DNA from: Candidatus Zixiibacteriota bacterium
Lineage (GTDB): Bacteria > Zixibacteria > MSB-5A5 > GN15 > FEB-12
Length of the DNA: 64,000 nucleotides
Direction of reading: 5' to 3'
Assembly (NCBI GenBank): GCA_040756055.1
Contig: JBFLZR010000004.1
Location: forward strand, 248,001 to 312,000
Shown here one piece after another: positions 55,633-64,000 of this stretch. The position numbers and the translations under genes are program-made. The stretch's first letter is position 1, and every line of letters starts with the position of its first letter. The notes beneath the pieces were generated by a model. The model worked only from the letters and a program-made list of their open reading frames with translations. It made no database searches and had not been told where the DNA came from.

Positions 55633-57285
55633 TCAAGTGCGTAGCTTTCCGATCTCGTCGCGAAGGTGATCCTCGCGCATATCCTGGCAGATATCCTCGA
55701 TCTGGAAAACGATGCGCTCGAGGTCGCCGACATTTGCCGGAATCAAAGCTTCCTCGGCCTTGTCCATCGCACCCGCGAACTCGCTGGACAGGAACTCATA
55801 GGAATCCTGGATTTCATCGGCAGCCAACTGGAAAGTCATCGTGATGAAATCGTATATCCGCTGCTCGATACCCTTGAGGTCGGGACAGGATCTGAGAATG
55901 CCGCTGACGACATCACCGATAGTCAACAGAAAGTCGCTGACTTCGCCCACGTCGAATCCCTCGACAAAGCGACGGCGCGCTATTGTTTCGGCATAATGAC
56001 GCATCAGGGTCCTGTCTCGGGTGCGGACCACGGCGCAGAGAATTTGATAAATCAAGGCAATGTACCAGTGCAGGGCCTTTTCGCCGAGTTTCCGATAGCG
56101 CGGGAAACGTGAGCTCGGGGATGCTTGCCAAATATGGCGAAAGATTTCATCGATTATGGCCTCGCGGTTTTCAACCAGGTGATTATAGATCACGAAGTTG
56201 GGTCTTTGGGCCACCCTGCGAAGAGCCGCTTCATTGCGGATGTGCCAGGCATCGGCGTGGTTTTTCATATTTTCCACGAGGAACAACAACCGGCGCAGGA
56301 TGTCGTAGCGCGGTGTCGGTGTCCAATGAAGCTTGCTATGGGTCGCCGACGCATCCACGTTGAGAATCTTGTCGATATATGAGGCCATCCACAGCCTTTC
56401 AAAAGGAAGATCACCGGTAATTCTTCCGATCGCCTGCCGCGAAGCCATTCCCGGATATACCAGAAACTTCGGCATCAAAAGCGGCCTGACATCTCGACCG
56501 AAAAAATAACGCGTGGCAGTCTTGTACAACTCGATATGAGTGGTGAATCCATTGGGGCTGGCGTTCAGAGTGCACAGTCTCGGCAATGAATCGGTCTTTT
56601 CTATCACCTTCAGAAAAAATCTGATCAGGTCTTGAACGTGAAGATACGGAACAGCGCTGTGACCACGTCCTCCCAGTACGCGTGAGTTCCATTTTGATGC
56701 GGTCCAGGTGTTGATAAAAACATAGAGTGGCGGATACTCGCACCAGTCGCTGTAGATGGCCGCCATTCGGACTATTGCGCTCGGGAACCATTCCTGGTGC
56801 TCCTTGATCAGTTCTTCACCGGCGCGTTTGCTGATAGCATAAGGATACTGCGCCACCGGGGGGCTGCTCTCGTCGATAGTCTTGCCTCTTGCGGGAAACT
56901 TGCAGGCGGCCAGCGAGCTGGCAAAAAGAAAACGCCGCGTTCCTATCTGCTTGGCAAGTTTGAGAATGTTGCGGGTCCCCTGCACGTTGGTGCGCTGGTA
57001 TTCTTCGTTGTCTTCATTGGTGAAGTCATAATAACCGGCCAGGTGCAGCACGAAATCGGCGCCGCCGTGCTCGAGAATGCACCGAACCGGTTCCCTGAGA
57101 GAGTCAAAGTGCGCTATATCAACCTGGGTCCAGCGGATATTTTCGTGCGAGGGAATTTCAGACTCTTTCTGAGAGCGGCGGGCAAGACAGAAAAGTCGAA
57201 ATTTACCCTTAACGGCGTCGACAAAGTGCCGCCCAATGAAACCGGAGGCACCGGTAACAACGATTCCGGGCAGGTTAGAGTGCAT
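55633..57285 (-). CDS. NAD-dependent epimerase/dehydratase fused to an RsbRD-like helical domain
   Basis: 550 residues. An extended SDR part (residues ~1-330) has the NAD motif TGASGFIG (11-18), LHLAGYYDF, and the catalytic YPYAISK (Tyr149, Lys153). The C-terminal ~200 residues are helical; about 368-463 (LVENREAIIDEIFRHIW, MRHYAETIARRRFVEGFDVG, EVSDFLLTIGDVVSGIL) resemble the RsbRD N-terminal sensor domain of stress signalling proteins. The last part is a further coiled region. GGGAGG lies about seven bases before the ATG at 57285. Substrate unknown. It precedes the M28 peptidase gene on the same strand. Confidence 0.8.
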   Translation of the reverse strand: MHSNLPGIVVTGASGFIGRHFVDAVKGKFRLFCLARRSQKESEIPSHENIRWTQVDIAHFDSLREPVRCILEHGGADFVLHLAGYYDFTNEDNEEYQRTNVQGTRNILKLAKQIGTRRFLFASSLAACKFPARGKTIDESSPPVAQYPYAISKRAGEELIKEHQEWFPSAIVRMAAIYSDWCEYPPLYVFINTWTASKWNSRVLGGRGHSAVPYLHVQDLIRFFLKVIEKTDSLPRLCTLNASPNGFTTHIELYKTATRYFFGRDVRPLLMPKFLVYPGMASRQAIGRITGDLPFERLWMASYIDKILNVDASATHSKLHWTPTPRYDILRRLLFLVENMKNHADAWHIRNEAALRRVAQRPNFVIYNHLVENREAIIDEIFRHIWQASPSSRFPRYRKLGEKALHWYIALIYQILCAVVRTRDRTLMRHYAETIARRRFVEGFDVGEVSDFLLTIGDVVSGILRSCPDLKGIEQRIYDFITMTFQLAADEIQDSYEFLSSEFAGAMDKAEEALIPANVGDLERIVFQIEDICQDMREDHLRDEIGKLRT

Positions 57286-57371
57286 GTGACTGCCTCCCTG
57301 ACAAAGCGCACCGAGGTTGTCGCCGACCCGCAACACCGGTTGGCGTCGGCCGGCTGAATCTATCTGAAAAC

Positions 57372-59468
57372 CTACTGTCCTGCTTTGGCGGCTTCCTGCT
57401 CCGCGAGCATTCTCGCCTCGAGGTCATGATCGTAACAGTATATACCGCAGTTCAGACACCGACCGGATTCGTATGCGGCGTCTTCCTCGTCGATCGTTCC
57501 CTCAACCTCTTTGAACGTACCCAGCCTGTCTTCAAGGGTAACGACAGGTTCATGGACGCGCGGTTTGGCCTCGACACCCACTATGGACTTGTGAAGCGAG
57601 TCCTCTATAAACCCCTTCTGCCTGTCGCGGATGGGTGGTATTTTACCTTCCATCATATAGTAATGAATCGAGCGTGCGGCAAAGCGTCCGGCCGCGATAG
57701 CCTCAACCACCAATCCCGGACCGGTAAAACAGTCACCGCCGGTGAAAACATACGGCACGTCCGTCTGCAAAGTATCTTCTTTGGCATCGATAGTGTTCCA
57801 TTTGGTGGTCTGAAGGTTCGGTTGCCCCTTCTCCTTGAGGAAGTCGAGGTTCGGGAACTGGCCGACAGCCTGAATCACCAGATCACAGCCTATTATTTCT
57901 TCAGTCCCTTCGACCGCTACGGGACGGCGGCGTCCGCTCGGGTCCGGCTCGCCCAGCTTCATTCCCTGAATTTCCAGTCCGCTGACAAAACCATCATTGC
58001 CGACAATCTTCAGCGGTGCGCTGAGGAATCTGAACTGCACTCCCTCTTCTTCGGCTGCGACAATCTCGGCCGGGTTGGCCGGCATTTCGTCGCGGGAACG
58101 ACGATACACAATCGTCACTCTCTTCGCACCCATCCTCAGCGAACTGCGGGCGGCATCGATAGCGGTATTACCGCCCCCGATGACTATTACATGATCACCG
58201 ATACGCAGCTCCTCGCCCGACTGCATACGCTCGAGGAAAGCGATACCGCTGAAGACGCCGTGGAGATCAGCGCCTTCTATGTTCAACTGCTGTTCGCTCC
58301 ATGCGCCCACGGCGACGAAGATGGCATCATACTTTTCAGCCCGGAGGAAATCCATGCTGAAGTCTTCGCCGAACTCGACGCTGGTGGTAGCAGATATTCC
58401 CAGGTCGAGAATCCCCTGAATCTCCCAGTCCAGAACCTTTTTCGGCAGACGGTATTCGGGGATTCCATAGCGGAGCATACCGCCCAGAGCCGGCATTTTT
58501 TCGAATATGGCGACTTCGTGTCCCAGACGACGCAGATAGTAAGCTGCCGAAAGTCCGCCGGGTCCGCCACCTATGATAGCCACCTTCTTGCCCGTCGCCG
58601 GCGCCACCGGAATGCGCAGACGTCTTCCGGAATTCATCTCCCAGTCGGCGGCGAAGCGTTTGAGATAGTTGATAGCCACCGGTTCGTCGTTGATAGTACG
58701 CCGGCAGGCCAGGGCGCAGGGCTCGGGACAGACGCGCCCGCAGGTGAGCGGGAGGGGGTTACGTTCCTTGATAGTCAAAAGCGCCTCGGCATACTCGCCG
58801 CGCTTGATGTGCTGGATATATTTCGGGATATTTATCTGAGCCGGACACTTTTGGCGGCACGGCGCCAGACATTCGGTATACTGGTTCCAATGCAGAATTT
58901 TCGTCTTCTCGGAGATGAGCGATATTATCCCCTTCGGGCACGCTCTGGAACAGGCGCCGCAGCCGACGCACAGTTCGGGGTGGAATTTGGGAAGACCGTT
59001 CTCCCCCATACTTATGGCGCCGAACTTGCACGACTTGACGCATGTTCCCAGACCGAGGCAACCATGGTTGCAGATCAAGTGGCCATGAAAGTACAGCACC
59101 GCCGCGCGGCAGTCATCGAATCCAGCGTATTCGTACTTTTTCGTGGCGCGCAAACCGCCCTGACAATCCGGACAGGCGATTTGCGGTTCGGTATCCATGA
59201 GTTTCATACCCAGAAACTCGGCCACCTGGTTGGCGACTTCCGTTTGACCCACCACACATGCGTTAGCCTCGGCCTGTCCCTGCACCATCGCCTCGGCGCA
59301 CGCTGCGCAGCCGGCAAATCCGCAACCGCCACAGTTGGCGCCGGGGAGTATATCGAGGACGCCTTTTATACGCGGATCCTCTTTCACATAAAATACACGG
59401 GCGGCAATACCCAATCCGACGGCGGCTATAAACCCGATCCCCGAAAGCACTATGATCGGTAACAACAT
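57372..59468 (-). CDS. rnfB: RnfB fused to a GltD-like NAD(P)H oxidoreductase
   Basis: 698 residues, against roughly 190-330 for ordinary RnfB. Residues 1-25 are a membrane anchor. 46-71 hold the RnfB cluster (ANCGGCGFAGCAACAEAMV), and 133-180 two ferredoxin clusters (CNHGCLGLGTCVKSC; CVGCGACSRACP). From ~195 it becomes a glutamate-synthase small-subunit-like module: Cys blocks CLAPCRQKCPAQINIPKYI and CGRVCPEPCALACRR, FAD site IIGGGPGGLSAAYYLRRLG (~298-317), NAD(P) site VIVIGGGNTAIDAARSSLRM (~427-446), and FTGGDCFTGPGLVVEA. A final Cys pair reads CLNCGIYC. It is the last gene of the rnf operon here. Confidence 0.93.
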   Translation of the reverse strand: MLLPIIVLSGIGFIAAVGLGIAARVFYVKEDPRIKGVLDILPGANCGGCGFAGCAACAEAMVQGQAEANACVVGQTEVANQVAEFLGMKLMDTEPQIACPDCQGGLRATKKYEYAGFDDCRAAVLYFHGHLICNHGCLGLGTCVKSCKFGAISMGENGLPKFHPELCVGCGACSRACPKGIISLISEKTKILHWNQYTECLAPCRQKCPAQINIPKYIQHIKRGEYAEALLTIKERNPLPLTCGRVCPEPCALACRRTINDEPVAINYLKRFAADWEMNSGRRLRIPVAPATGKKVAIIGGGPGGLSAAYYLRRLGHEVAIFEKMPALGGMLRYGIPEYRLPKKVLDWEIQGILDLGISATTSVEFGEDFSMDFLRAEKYDAIFVAVGAWSEQQLNIEGADLHGVFSGIAFLERMQSGEELRIGDHVIVIGGGNTAIDAARSSLRMGAKRVTIVYRRSRDEMPANPAEIVAAEEEGVQFRFLSAPLKIVGNDGFVSGLEIQGMKLGEPDPSGRRRPVAVEGTEEIIGCDLVIQAVGQFPNLDFLKEKGQPNLQTTKWNTIDAKEDTLQTDVPYVFTGGDCFTGPGLVVEAIAAGRFAARSIHYYMMEGKIPPIRDRQKGFIEDSLHKSIVGVEAKPRVHEPVVTLEDRLGTFKEVEGTIDEEDAAYESGRCLNCGIYCYDHDLEARMLAEQEAAKAGQ

Positions 59469-59489: not shown

Positions 59490-60065
59490 CTAATTAACCA
59501 TTCCCGAAAACCCGAGAAAGGCCAGCGACATAATGCCGGCCGTCACCAGCGCGATCGCCGTACCCTGCATAGCCCGTGGCACCGGCGATACCAGCAGTCG
59601 TTCCCGAAGTCCGGCAAACAATACGATGGCCAAGCCGAACCCGAACGCCGCCGAAAACGAATAAACGACCATATCGACAAAACCAAAATCATTCTTGATA
59701 TTCAAAAGGGCGACACCCATAACGGCGCAGTTGGTGGTGATCAGCGGCAGGTAAATTCCCAGAGCGTTGTAGAGAGCCGGGCTCTGTTTCTTCAAGAAGA
59801 TCTCGACAAATTGAACCAGCGCGGCGATGATGAGAATGAACACCAGCGTGGAAATGAACTCCAGGTCATATGGCTTGAGGATGAAGTGATAAGCCGACCA
59901 GGTGAAAATGGAAGCCAGGGTTACCACGAAAACAACCGCCGCTCCCATACCTATCGACGTACCCAATTTCTTGGAAACACCGCAGAACGGACAGTTGCCG
60001 AGGTACTGCGCCAGAAGAATATTATTTACGAAAATGGCGGCTATCGCTAACAGAAGCAATTCCAT
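59490..60065 (-). CDS. rnfA: Rnf complex subunit RnfA
   Basis: 191 residues, six membrane helices. RnfA and RnfE are inverted homologues that hold a [2Fe-2S] cluster and form the ion path. It has NNILLAQYLGNCPFCGVSKK and LGIYLPLITTNCAVMGVALL, each with the conserved Cys. I prefer the ATG at 60065, which has GGAG at good distance; an ATG two codons earlier abuts that site. It starts 15 bases after the rnfE stop. Confidence 0.95.
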   Translation of the reverse strand: MELLLLAIAAIFVNNILLAQYLGNCPFCGVSKKLGTSIGMGAAVVFVVTLASIFTWSAYHFILKPYDLEFISTLVFILIIAALVQFVEIFLKKQSPALYNALGIYLPLITTNCAVMGVALLNIKNDFGFVDMVVYSFSAAFGFGLAIVLFAGLRERLLVSPVPRAMQGTAIALVTAGIMSLAFLGFSGMVN

Positions 60066-60080
60066 TGTCATCTCCTACGC

Positions 60081-60692
60081 CTAAGTCTGTATAAACGTCT
60101 CGCCGCGCATACGGCTGTACGCGTTCATCAACCCCAGCATGATTCCGAGGCAAATAAACGCACCGGGGGCTTTCACCATGAACTCAAACGGCTCAAAACT
60201 GTTCCACATCACTTGCATTCCGAGCCATGATCCGGATCCGAGTATCTCCCTTATCGACCCGACCAGGGTCAGCGAAATGGTAAAACCGATTCCCACACTC
60301 AAACCATCCGTCATCGAAAGCAGCATGCCGTTACGCGAGGCAAAGGCCTCGGCGCGTCCCAGAATGATACAGTTCACCACGATCAGTGGAATATATATGC
60401 CGAGCTGCTGTGACAGCGGGAAGAAGAACGCCCTCATGACCATCTCGACAATAACCACCAGCGTGGCGATGATTACGATATAGCTGGCTATGCGAACCTT
60501 GTCGGGAATCACCTTGCGAAGGGCCGAGATGAACAGGTTGGAGAATATCAGCACGAAAGTTACCGCCAGTCCCATACCCAGCCCGTTCTCGGCCGCCGAG
60601 GTCACTGCCAGCGAGGGACACAAACCTAAAACCAGTCTGAACGGCGGAAGGTCACGCCATAAGCCGTGTACAAGTACCTTTTTAAACTCCAT
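60081..60692 (-). CDS. rnfE: Rnf complex subunit RnfE
   Basis: 203 residues, six membrane helices, homologous to RnfA in inverted topology. It has LVLGLCPSLAVTSAAENGLG and YIPLIVVNCIILGRAEAFAS, with the two conserved Cys that share the membrane iron-sulfur cluster. GAGGG before the ATG. It lies between rnfG and rnfA. Confidence 0.95.
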   Translation of the reverse strand: MEFKKVLVHGLWRDLPPFRLVLGLCPSLAVTSAAENGLGMGLAVTFVLIFSNLFISALRKVIPDKVRIASYIVIIATLVVIVEMVMRAFFFPLSQQLGIYIPLIVVNCIILGRAEAFASRNGMLLSMTDGLSVGIGFTISLTLVGSIREILGSGSWLGMQVMWNSFEPFEFMVKAPGAFICLGIMLGLMNAYSRMRGETFIQT

Positions 60693-60722: not shown

Positions 60723-61310
60723 TCATTGATGCTTTTCCTGTTCGATGGCAGCCAGGATATCCTGCCGGTGCGATGTCATCAAATCTACAACGACATTGGT
60801 TCCGGCGACGACCGCTCTGGAGGAATATGTCGCGCCGCTGATAGCGTCGATTTGCTGGCCAAGCTGCACCGGCTGTTCAACCGACAAGCCGCTCCACTGC
60901 CTGCGGAAAGACATTTTCTCGACCTGTGATCCGACACCGGGCGTTTCCTTGTGCTCGATGATTTCGATCCCGATAATTTTTTCGGCTTTCAGATCAACGC
61001 CGATCATGATCATTATATCGCCACCATAGCCGCCCTGGCCGGCTGCTTCGATGGCAAGCCCGGCGACATCGTCGCCTTCTTTCCAATAAAAGATCGGATA
61101 GAGACGTCCGTCCGAAGCATACGTAATCTTGTTAACCAGCAACTCGGCTGCCGGGCGGTTGAACAGACGTTCCAAGGCCGGACCCCGCACGTAGAAATCG
61201 CTCTGAAGCTCAATACGCTCCGAGAGTGTTTGCCGGGCCAGTGTCAAAGCTCCGGCGGCAACCCCGCAAATGACGCTCAGAACGATTACCAGTCTGATTA
61301 TCTCACGCAC
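60723..61310 (-). CDS. rnfG: Rnf complex subunit RnfG (covalent FMN)
   Basis: 195 residues: an N-terminal membrane helix and a periplasmic FMN-binding domain. The flavinylation motif is intact, DAISGATYSSRAVV, with Thr161 as the expected FMN-linked residue; ApbE would be needed to attach it and is not in the window. ETPGVGSQVEK is also present. I placed the start at the GTG at 61310, with GGAGG six bases upstream, overlapping the rnfD stop; a GTG six codons earlier is possible. Confidence 0.93.
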   Translation of the reverse strand: MREIIRLVIVLSVICGVAAGALTLARQTLSERIELQSDFYVRGPALERLFNRPAAELLVNKITYASDGRLYPIFYWKEGDDVAGLAIEAAGQGGYGGDIMIMIGVDLKAEKIIGIEIIEHKETPGVGSQVEKMSFRRQWSGLSVEQPVQLGQQIDAISGATYSSRAVVAGTNVVVDLMTSHRQDILAAIEQEKHQ

Positions 61311-62286
61311 GGGACACCTCCGTGACACCCTTCACCTTCGGGGCAATCCTGTCCAAGAGCGGGTTGCACAGATTTATGAGAAGAACGGCAAACGCCGCGC
61401 CATCGACATATATGGAAAACGCGCGAATCAGCATAAGCAGCACTCCCCCCAGAAAACCATATATCAGCATGGGAATCCTGTTCACGGGCGAGGTGGTGTA
61501 CTCGGTAGCCAGAAAGAACGCCGCGAAAACGGTACCTCTGGCCAGCAGGTAAAACCACGGGGAGGCATACTGAGCCGGGTCGGCAAGATGCAGTACGCCG
61601 GCCATGAAGAGCTGCCCGCCTATGAACGCCACCGGAATATGCCAGGTTATCTGCCGGGCGAGCAGAAGGATTATCCCGCCTATGAGCAAATACAGAACCA
61701 ATCCATTGCCGATGCCGGCGACCTGTCGTCCCAGAAGAAGATCTTTCCAGTAATAGGCACTTTCCATGCTGCTTCCAAGTGTTTTTACCAGCCTGAGCGG
61801 TTCAACCATTTTCTGCGACCATTCAATCGTAACCATCGAGGCCGTGAAATCGAACCGTTGCGGCCATGAAACCCGCATTATCGCATAGCTCAACAGGACC
61901 GGGTGAACCGGATAGGCGCCGTAGCCGCCGAAGAGCTTCTTGCCGATCACAATCATGATAAAGCTGCCAACGACCAGCAACCACCAGGGGGCGTTATAAG
62001 GCATAGTGAAAGCCAGCAAAACGGCCATGGTAACGCTGCTCCAGTTGGCGGTTTTGTCCTTTGACGGTACCACCATATTTGACAGCGCGTCAAAAGACAC
62101 CGAACACACTACGGTCATACCGATAATGCGCAGACTGTTGAAGCCGAACAACCAGACGCTGGCGATCATGGCCGGAAGGAGAGCTATCAGCCAGACCTGC
62201 TGCGAACGCGCTATCGAACTGCCGTCACGCCAGTGAGGACTGGAGGCGACATTTAGAGGGTTCGGATTCAGTGTAACAACGTTCAC
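61303..62286 (-). CDS. rnfD: Rnf complex subunit RnfD, missing the flavin Thr
   Basis: 327 residues, about ten membrane helices (e.g. VWLIALLPAMIASVWLFGFN, YNAPWWLLVVGSFIMIVIGK). Canonical RnfD carries FMN on a Thr in a short S/T-x-A-T-P-L motif. The aligned stretch here is WSQKMVEPLRLVKT (residues 156-169), with Glu162 where Thr is expected. The rest of the fold, including GGYGAYPVHPVLLSYAIMRV, is normal. The GTG start overlaps the rnfC stop (GTGA). Confidence 0.9.
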   Translation of the reverse strand: MNVVTLNPNPLNVASSPHWRDGSSIARSQQVWLIALLPAMIASVWLFGFNSLRIIGMTVVCSVSFDALSNMVVPSKDKTANWSSVTMAVLLAFTMPYNAPWWLLVVGSFIMIVIGKKLFGGYGAYPVHPVLLSYAIMRVSWPQRFDFTASMVTIEWSQKMVEPLRLVKTLGSSMESAYYWKDLLLGRQVAGIGNGLVLYLLIGGIILLLARQITWHIPVAFIGGQLFMAGVLHLADPAQYASPWFYLLARGTVFAAFFLATEYTTSPVNRIPMLIYGFLGGVLLMLIRAFSIYVDGAAFAVLLINLCNPLLDRIAPKVKGVTEVSRA

Positions 62287-63575
62287 AGTTCTATCCTATC
62301 ATATTGAATGCTCATTTTGATCAGCTGCACCAGCGGCCGGTGAGCGGGGCATACATAAGTGCAGAGACCACAGGCGTTGCAGGCTTCGGGATGAAACGTT
62401 TTCGACTCAGCCAGAAGACCGTGCTCAACATAGCGGCCGATAAGGTGAACCTGCAGCCGCACCGGACAGGCCCGCGTACACCTGCCGCAATTTATGCACG
62501 TCAGGTTGACTTCCTCGGGAATGGCCTCTCGCGGCACCAGGTATATTCCATGACTCGATTTCGTCAGCGGGGTTTCATCGGTAAACTGGGCATTGCCCTT
62601 CATCGGGCCGCCGACAACTATCCTGCCATAGGAATTGCCGTTGGTACCGACTCCCGCTAAAACAGACTTAATGGTCGTGCCAACCGGAAACGCTACCGTC
62701 ACTGGCGCCTGTCCATCACCCGACGACACCGTGAGATGTTTGGTCACGAACGGCCCGACACCATCAAGAGCATCCACCATACTCAACAGATACTCAGCCG
62801 AAACAACGGCTATTCCCTTTTTGCGATAGGGTTCCGTATTGGGAACATCGATCCCGGTGATCTTCGGCACCACGAGCCGCTCGATGCGATCTTTGTACTC
62901 ATCGGAGAGCACCACGACCTTAAGCTGACTACCGAACAGCTTTTTCGCCCAGCTTTCCAGCCGACGGGGCACTGTCAGCCACTTCTGAGCCTTCGGAGCC
63001 AGATTGCCAAGCCGATTGAGCCCCTTGAGAACCTTTTCCGCCTGCCGCTGAAGGAGAATTTCGAAGATAAAAACGGATGGTTCCTCGTTCACTCCCTTGA
63101 TGATGATATGCTGGACATCGGGAAAATCGCCCACATCCTCTTCCTGATGGAACCGTCCCGGCAAAGTCCACGGAGAGACAACCCCCGCCGCTTTGAGACG
63201 CTGAAGCCTGGTAGCCGACTGATACTGGACACCGTACTGTTCGAAAAGGTCATCCATCGTCCAGGCCGGCTCGTCGTTTCGGTCGATGACGACTGCCGGG
63301 ACGTTGAAACTGCGAGCGGTCCAGATCGGCTTAATTTCTCTGACCGTGCCGCTTACGGATGCGTGGACACAGTTGCCGAGCGCCGACTTGCCTATAATCT
63401 GGTTTTTTCGGACTTTTGTACCCGCCTTGACCAGCGGCTTGTAAAGAACCTGTCCCGGGTATTCCAGCGGAATGATAACATACTCGGGCTCCAGCATGCG
63501 GGCAACAGTGTCCTCGAACCCGGTCATTCTCGGTACATGAGCAAAGGGTCTCAATATGGTGCTAAGGAAATCCAT
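62283..63575 (-). CDS. rnfC: Rnf complex subunit RnfC, divergent flavin/NADH region
   Basis: 430 residues. An N-terminal barrel-sandwich part (PLEYPGQVLYKPLVKAGTKV) is followed by the region that normally carries the GGAGFPTHVK-type FMN/NADH loop. Here it reads LKAAGVVSPWTLPGRF, and the later NGAECEPY-type segment is KGVNEEPSVF. An SLBB-like part follows (VTVAFPVGTTIKSVLAGVGT). Two intact [4Fe-4S] sites end the protein (CINCGRCTRACP; CNACGLCTYVCP). I chose the ATG at 63575; a TTG five codons earlier abuts the ribosome-like site. It begins 22 bases after the cytochrome gene. Confidence 0.9.
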   Translation of the reverse strand: MDFLSTILRPFAHVPRMTGFEDTVARMLEPEYVIIPLEYPGQVLYKPLVKAGTKVRKNQIIGKSALGNCVHASVSGTVREIKPIWTARSFNVPAVVIDRNDEPAWTMDDLFEQYGVQYQSATRLQRLKAAGVVSPWTLPGRFHQEEDVGDFPDVQHIIIKGVNEEPSVFIFEILLQRQAEKVLKGLNRLGNLAPKAQKWLTVPRRLESWAKKLFGSQLKVVVLSDEYKDRIERLVVPKITGIDVPNTEPYRKKGIAVVSAEYLLSMVDALDGVGPFVTKHLTVSSGDGQAPVTVAFPVGTTIKSVLAGVGTNGNSYGRIVVGGPMKGNAQFTDETPLTKSSHGIYLVPREAIPEEVNLTCINCGRCTRACPVRLQVHLIGRYVEHGLLAESKTFHPEACNACGLCTYVCPAHRPLVQLIKMSIQYDRIEL

Positions 63576-63596
63576 TGAAGACTCAATCAATCCTTA

Positions 63597-64000
63597 TCAT
63601 TTCAGGTGGCACACGTTACAACGCGAATTGCCGTTTTCATCGACAAACAATTTCGGATTTTCACGGGCATGGCAGCGGTCACACTGCTCGTGGTAAACAT
63701 CGGCCGCTGACCTAACCACATGGCAGGCATCGCAAGTATGCCCCTCAATAGCCAGCATCTCGTCATGAGTGATTGTGTCCTCGGTATACTCATCGCTGTG
63801 ACATTCCGGGCAGGCCACGATGCGGTTTTCTTCGTCCTGTGTTTTGGGGTGACACTCCCGGCAATTCTGGATAGGCATCGATTCATCCTTGAGATGGCAC
63901 AACCCGCACTCGTGCGACTCAATCGCCATCAGGTCCGCGTGGTCAAAATCCTTGGCGTCGAAATCTTCCCCGTGGCATTCGCTGCAATCGCGCTCGACAT
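63597..64000 (-). CDS. Multihaem cytochrome c (3' part)
   Basis: The frame is open to the window edge, so the protein continues upstream. The visible 134 residues hold seven CxxCH haem sites: CSECH, CGLCH, CRECH, CPECH, CDACH, CDRCH and CNVCH, spaced like cytochrome c3/c7-type chains. It is presumably periplasmic; the signal peptide would be outside the window. It is the gene before rnfC, separated by 21 bases, the same order as the multihaem cytochrome-rnf operons known from Desulfovibrio and, in principle, Methanosarcina. Confidence 0.93.
   Translation of the reverse strand, partial: VERDCSECHGEDFDAKDFDHADLMAIESHECGLCHLKDESMPIQNCRECHPKTQDEENRIVACPECHSDEYTEDTITHDEMLAIEGHTCDACHVVRSAADVYHEQCDRCHARENPKLFVDENGNSRCNVCHLK

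Follow-up and report, generated by a model that had tools for sequence, protein, structure and literature searches.

An RnfB-GltD fusion in Zixibacteria belongs to a Rnf2-type complex whose RnfC and RnfD have lost their flavin motifs

In the published canonical route, electrons travel through the Rnf complex from RnfB to RnfA/E, then to the FMN of RnfG, the FMN of RnfD and the FMN of RnfC, and finally to NAD. A second type of complex was described in 2016 from D. multivorans, where the passages on the Rnf cluster define the Tol2-type complex by an RnfB of ~700 aa with NAD-binding sites, an RnfC without NADH domains and a cytochrome in the cluster, report detection of its proteins by proteomics and propose a different mode of action, with verification pending (PMC5109826). 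In its account of the complex, a 2025 study names it Rnf2, places it in the core genome of the Desulfobacteraceae, assigns Rnf1 to the Desulfovibrionaceae, reports that Rnf2 is abundantly formed and draws it as a link between ferredoxin and the NADH pool (PMC11887813). The fused frames that we found in Desulfovibrionaceae contradict the Rnf1 assignment for many members of that family. A 'loss of rnfB' has also been reported in Desulfovibrionaceae (PMC11434368); where the last gene of an operon is an FAD-dependent oxidoreductase, its frame also contains RnfB, and the reported loss is best explained as this fusion, the match being one of operon form, not of strain. In the literature we found neither a description of an RnfB fusion under the names GltD, NfnB or glutamate synthase nor biochemistry on any Rnf2. 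Here we describe this arrangement, already known as Tol2-type or Rnf2, in Zixibacteria; new are the loss of the RnfC FMN and RnfD covalent-FMN motifs throughout the fused operons, the retention of the RnfG and RnfA/E sites, the grouping of all degenerate operons, fused and unfused, in a single clade, the affinity of the module to StnC/NfnABC, and an NAD(P)H site that is intact in the window yet altered in roughly half of its relatives.

The window, a stretch of 64,000 nucleotides from a Candidatus Zixiibacteriota bacterium, carries the fused rnfB as the last gene of an operon with the order cytochrome (eight haems)-rnfC-D-G-E-A-B, in which it starts 21 bases after rnfA (Table 1). The initial annotation had read this gene as one frame in which RnfB continues into an FAD- and NAD(P)H-binding module of GltD type with intact dinucleotide motifs, and both points are borne out. 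Pfam places an FeS domain at residues 41-72, Fer4 pairs at ~133-183, Fer4_20 at 200-280 and Pyr_redox_2 at 294-594, and NCBIfam matches RnfB models over residues 1-260 and the GltD-like model PRK12771 over residues 195-682, above its cut-off. The wider search for such fusions that had been advised yielded fused proteins in three groups, Zixibacteria, Desulfobacterota and Eisenbacteria, 81 in all. These conserved fusions, which include those of cultured isolates, rule out a frameshift or an assembly join as the source of the fusion. Invariant among the 81 are the cysteines of the RnfB CGGCG cluster (46, 49, 54 and 71), those of the two ferredoxin clusters (133-177) and those of the module (204, 208, 247, 251, 255, 671, 674 and 678), and the FAD loop glycines G300, G302 and G305 are likewise kept in every protein. 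In the window protein, the second loop (G431/G433/A436) is intact, as is the pair R456-R457, which we take from family knowledge to be the likely contact for the 2'-phosphate of NADPH. The AlphaFold model of the fused protein is of moderate quality (pLDDT 73, pTM 0.68) and poor around residues 94-200.

Table 1. Coordinates of the fused gene, its parts and the other genes of the operon in the window
Feature	Position	Strand	Basis or remark
RnfB-GltD fusion (Rnf2-type large RnfB)	57372..59468	-	ATG start, 698 aa, no internal stop; Pfam, NCBIfam
RnfB part, residues 1-190: TM anchor, CGGCG cluster, two ferredoxin clusters	58899..59468	-	Pfam; matches 9eri_B, 7zc6_B; conserved cysteines
GltD/StnC-like module, residues 197-680: two 4Fe-4S sites, FAD and NAD(P)H folds, C-terminal CxxCxxxC	57429..58880	-	Pfam; Z 44 to 9bov_A, 43 to 8oh5_C
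FAD loop GxGxxG, residues 300-305	58554..58571	-	kept in 81/81 fused proteins
Lys270, aligned with StnC K170 (Glu in bifurcating NfnB)	58659..58661	-	alignment
NAD(P) loop GGGNTA, residues 431-436	58161..58178	-	motif comparison
R456-R457 of YRRSRDEMPA	58098..58103	-	motif comparison
rnfA	59490..60071	-	Pfam, NCBIfam
rnfE	60081..60692	-	Pfam, NCBIfam
rnfG, FMN attachment motif SGAT present	60723..61328	-	NCBIfam, motif survey
rnfD, covalent-FMN motif gone (MVEPLR replaces S/TxATPL)	61303..62286	-	NCBIfam, motif survey
rnfC, TTG start, FMN/NADH motifs gone, both 4Fe-4S motifs present	62283..63590	-	NCBIfam, motif survey
Membrane-anchored 8-haem c-type cytochrome, cut by window edge	63597..64000	-	full gene L008:8598-9233

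Fused frames of ~700 aa occur in three other Zixibacteria genomes, and close relatives of the same family (Candidatus Zixiibacteriota) share the operon including its eight-haem cytochrome. A scan of named genomes recovered the fusion in Desulfobulbales isolates, among them Desulfopila aestuarii DSM 18488 and Desulfofustis glycolicus DSM 9705 and also in Eisenbacteria and other MAGs; matches with fused frames numbered about 60 in Desulfobacterota (668-799 aa) and 38 in Desulfovibrionaceae (698-762 aa). One 3.6-Mb Desulfovibrionaceae genome has three separate fused rnf operons on a single chromosome (L136, L137 and L138); in one of them the cytochrome has five haems and the NAD(P) site has decayed. 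Because 64 of the 81 fused proteins are encoded in an rnf operon or in what is left of one, usually by the last gene, we consider it highly improbable that RnfB-GltD acts alone as a membrane-anchored NADPH:ferredoxin oxidoreductase for which its place in the rnf operon is only supportive, even though the loci of the other 17 lack a complete rnf operon (L053 and L075 may be contig-end cuts) and some of these proteins lie beside DsrMKJOP-like, RseC or NuoF-like genes. Fusions without an rnf operon that adjoin DsrMKJOP-like genes, RseC or a NuoE/F-like fusion (L054, L056, L068, L076, L087 and L090) indicate that the module can be used elsewhere.

Within the window operon, Pfam finds only RnfC_N and ferredoxin-type models in RnfC, the NADH-oxidoreductase (FMN) and SLBB domains being absent, and both the intramembrane-cluster cysteines of RnfA and RnfE and the covalent-FMN threonine of RnfG are present. 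The full-length cytochrome, of 211 aa, starts with a hydrophobic anchor and contains eight CxxCH motifs, and a gene for an ApbE flavin transferase adjoins the operon just past it. In most fused operons rnfC is directly preceded by a cytochrome gene whose product has between 4 and 10 haem motifs, and about ten have no cytochrome adjoining rnfC. No second RnfB was found in the genome of the window at E 1e-20. The next gene downstream of the fusion (55633-57336, minus strand) is that of an NAD-dependent epimerase whose C-terminal part is long and helical, has no Pfam match and is reminiscent of RsbRD-type domains.

The degeneration of RnfC and RnfD that the initial annotation had noted in the window recurs throughout the fused operons. 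We scored the RnfC FMN motif (G.GGAxFP), the RnfD covalent-flavin motif (S/TxATP) and the RnfG motif ([S/A/G]GAT) across the 110 loci where RnfA, RnfD and RnfE could be read. The RnfC motif is present in 33/33 canonical operons and in 0/58 fused operons, so that the normal RnfC NADH site whose survival in fusion-bearing genomes had been named as grounds for rejecting the initial interpretation is kept in none of the fused operons. The RnfD motif is likewise present in all 33 canonical operons, in one of which (L124) it reads ATATP, and absent from all fused operons, the single apparent match (L055) lying elsewhere in the protein. The two losses coincide: 72 loci lack both motifs, 33 have both and 2 lack only that of RnfC. 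L109 and L126 are unfused operons with the order D-C-B-A-E-G on one strand in which the RnfC FMN motif is lost and the RnfD flavin motif kept, and they represent a different, partial degeneration. Fusion-bearing genomes often have a second, canonical Rnf, and in eight genomes with both types RnfC is intact in the unfused operon only and degenerate in the fused one (unfused/fused pairs L044/L025, L045/L029+L048, L046/L024, L047/L038, L115/L069, L116/L060, L118/L071 and L119/L067). As a separate observation on canonical rnfB, the unfused genes of L116, L117, L118 and L119 from Desulfobacterota carry an in-frame TGA at the first Cys of the CGGCG motif (AGAQ*GGCGFAGC), where sister loci have TGC or TGT; this codon is a candidate for a selenocysteine ligand of the RnfB [4Fe-4S] cluster, and downstream hairpins can form.

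The remaining sites of the complex are retained. The FMN threonine of RnfG is kept in nearly every readable row, with GAS replacing GAT in several Desulfobulbales; RnfA has both cysteines in all rows; of the two in RnfE, one is invariant and the second is found in 96% of the degenerate rows. Among columns conserved to at least 90% in canonical Rnf, the degenerate clade retains 33 of 41 in RnfA and 32 of 42 in RnfE, as against 19 of 67 in RnfD and 20 of 100 in RnfC. A complex that keeps everything up to RnfG and has lost the flavin motifs of RnfD and RnfC is most simply read as one in which RnfG is the point of electron exit or entry, on the periplasmic side, for which the operon provides a cytochrome. 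Our main reading, to which we give a probability of roughly 0.5, is a Rnf2-type NADP(H)/ferredoxin-linked complex that passes electrons via RnfA/E and RnfG to a periplasmic cytochrome and whose return leg through RnfC and RnfD is dismantled. RnfB has a StnC-like NADP(H):FAD module that is linked to its ferredoxin clusters by [4Fe-4S] motifs, and in our reading NADP(H) and ferredoxin would trade electrons with this subunit in the cytoplasm, with no bifurcation; electrons would then cross via the RnfA/E cluster to the FMN of RnfG and on to the periplasmic cytochrome, or in reverse, with ion movement presumably coupled at RnfA/E. The U-turn through RnfD and RnfC to NAD would be dismantled, leaving these two subunits a mainly structural part.

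Against this main reading stands the retention of both 4Fe-4S motifs of RnfC, whose eight cysteines are kept in every full-length row and would be unneeded in a purely structural subunit. They favor an alternative, also put forward in the published passages on Tol2-type Rnf, in which RnfC still conducts, its two [4Fe-4S] clusters being fed via RnfD, perhaps by a non-covalent flavin, and passing electrons to a cytoplasmic partner other than NAD; we judge this unlikely, given that the RnfD covalent-FMN motif is missing in every fused operon, that RnfD conservation has collapsed and that no candidate partner gene common to the operons was seen. Also against the main reading are the roughly ten fused operons that have no cytochrome beside rnfC, and the case of D. 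alaskensis: its rnf operon starts with the decahaem gene dhcA, and mutants in rnf fail on H2, on formate and on ethanol, whereas dhcA proved unimportant (PMC4215793). The operon's own cytochrome is therefore not always needed, and in D. alaskensis another periplasmic cytochrome could serve.

By sequence and fold, the best solved relatives of the module are the GltD-like parts of NfnABC (9bov_A; Z 44.3, 2.1 A over 464 residues) and StnABC (8oh5_C; Z 43.4), with NfnB (Z about 35) and glutamate synthase ranking behind them. Lys270 aligns with K170 of StnC, where T. maritima NfnB has Glu, and is Lys in 76/81 fused proteins. According to the StnABC paper, the FAD of StnC is a non-bifurcating flavin and the proximal cluster has Glu in NfnB. 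The initial annotation had suggested that the complex may bifurcate, and a flavin that sends NADPH electrons both to the ferredoxin clusters and along a higher-potential route, as in NfnB, would be in keeping with the homology of the module to NfnB and with an Arg near FAD N5 (R340, by alignment R239 of StnC) in 81/81 fused proteins. The module is nevertheless of the StnC/NfnABC kind, with Lys at the proximal-cluster position, and the operon encodes no NfnA partner. The same genome has a separate NfnAB-like pair (L010 8631-10963) and a StnABC-like locus (L009 7546-14068), so NADPH/ferredoxin exchange is already covered elsewhere. We therefore regard bifurcation as quite improbable; judged from the closest relatives of the module and from Lys270, a linear, non-bifurcating NADPH site appears likelier.

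A wider motif test of the NAD(P) site divided the 81 fused proteins into 37 with an intact site, 11 of an RF type (Desulfobulbales), 1 partial and 32 altered or lost; RR is present in 38. Among the proteins with altered or lost sites, 27 form one clade and five, from Desulfovibrionaceae, another. This would suit a vestigial or regulatory module and a complex that is in effect a ferredoxin:cytochrome oxidoreductase, but we think such a module most doubtful, since the window protein and those closely related to it have conserved and intact copies of the two loops and of RR. With the site altered or lost in 32 proteins and of RF type in 11 more, NAD(P) chemistry cannot be the clade-wide function. 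The four-haem cytochrome operons L057, L059, L060, L067, L069, L071, L072, L078 and L083 are fused, yet their NAD(P) site is altered; they are similar to Rnf2 as published, whose cytochrome is of 15 kDa, and this makes the assumed NAD link of Rnf2 doubtful.

A tree of RnfA plus RnfE splits canonical (35 rows) from degenerate (75 rows) complexes with an SH-aLRT of 100. Only RnfC has decayed in 2 of the 35 canonical rows, and the degenerate clade comprises 59 fused and 14 unfused rows and two that are cut by contig ends. The unfused degenerate rows form two groups, the Desulfovibrio piger type and a clade of eight operons; the former is nested among fused Desulfovibrionaceae, which suggests that these operons secondarily lost the GltD module. 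RnfC/RnfD decay follows clade rather than fusion: unfused operons of the same clade are equally decayed, and the fusion as cause of RnfC decay is not supported. Fusion and RnfC loss are associated by Fisher test (p = 8e-16), a value that counts operons, not independent events; a phylogenetically corrected test gave no significance, there being only 2-3 independent pairs, and the association has the statistical weight of a few events. The proposal that nicotinamide chemistry moved from RnfC to RnfB fits the window; for the group at large it has to be qualified, as many fused relatives have a decayed NAD(P) site and unfused kin share the decay of RnfC.

For the whole clade (Zixibacteria, Eisenbacteria and Desulfobacterota including many Desulfovibrionaceae), we tentatively entertain, at somewhat less than an even chance, that these Rnf complexes are transmembrane NADP(H)/ferredoxin:periplasmic-cytochrome oxidoreductases instead of ferredoxin:NAD+ oxidoreductases, with a dead RnfD/RnfC return leg; they would then make up a third branch, distinct in function from both Rnf and Nqr. 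Should the return leg be gone and the nicotinamide site lie on RnfB, or be absent as in many relatives, the energy accounting of the sulfate reducers that carry Rnf2 would need revision, and Rnf in Desulfovibrio fitness studies might also have to be reinterpreted.

Compared with the Tol2-type/Rnf2 complexes of Desulfobacula toluolica and Desulfococcus multivorans, as far as their clusters are described in PMC5109826 and PMC11887813, the window complex shares the ~700-aa RnfB with an NAD-binding domain, an RnfC without NADH domains and a cytochrome in the cluster. It differs from what is described there in belonging to Zixibacteria instead of Desulfobacterota, in an eight-haem instead of a 15-kDa cytochrome, in a fully intact NAD(P) site and in the loss of the RnfD motif, of which the passages on the Tol2-type cluster make no mention. 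A multihaem cytochrome is also associated with the Methanosarcina Rnf with MmcA, and no report of a fused RnfB in Methanosarcina was found in the literature. With canonical Rnf (Acetobacterium woodii, 9eri; Clostridium tetanomorphum, 7zc6), the complex has in common the RnfA/E core and its cysteines, the ferredoxin part of RnfB and the FMN motif of RnfG, whereas the FMN/NADH motifs of RnfC and the covalent-FMN motif of RnfD are lost and a GltD module and a cytochrome gene are added. StnABC (8oh5) and NfnABC (9bov, 9n5u) share with the fusion the fold over residues 198-677, the FAD and NADPH loops, the proximal-cluster Lys and the C-terminal CxxCxxxC, but the module of the window is fused to a membrane-anchored RnfB and not to a NuoG-like part, lacks a HydBC-type partner in its operon and has Ile at the position of C114 of StnC. 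Bifurcating NfnB has the same GltD fold with FAD and NADPH loops and Glu in place of Lys270. Like the window complex, Na+-NQR takes in NAD(P)H electrons through a flavin on the subunit in the RnfB position and has an RnfC homologue without flavin, but its NqrF module is of the unrelated FNR type and it delivers electrons to quinone.
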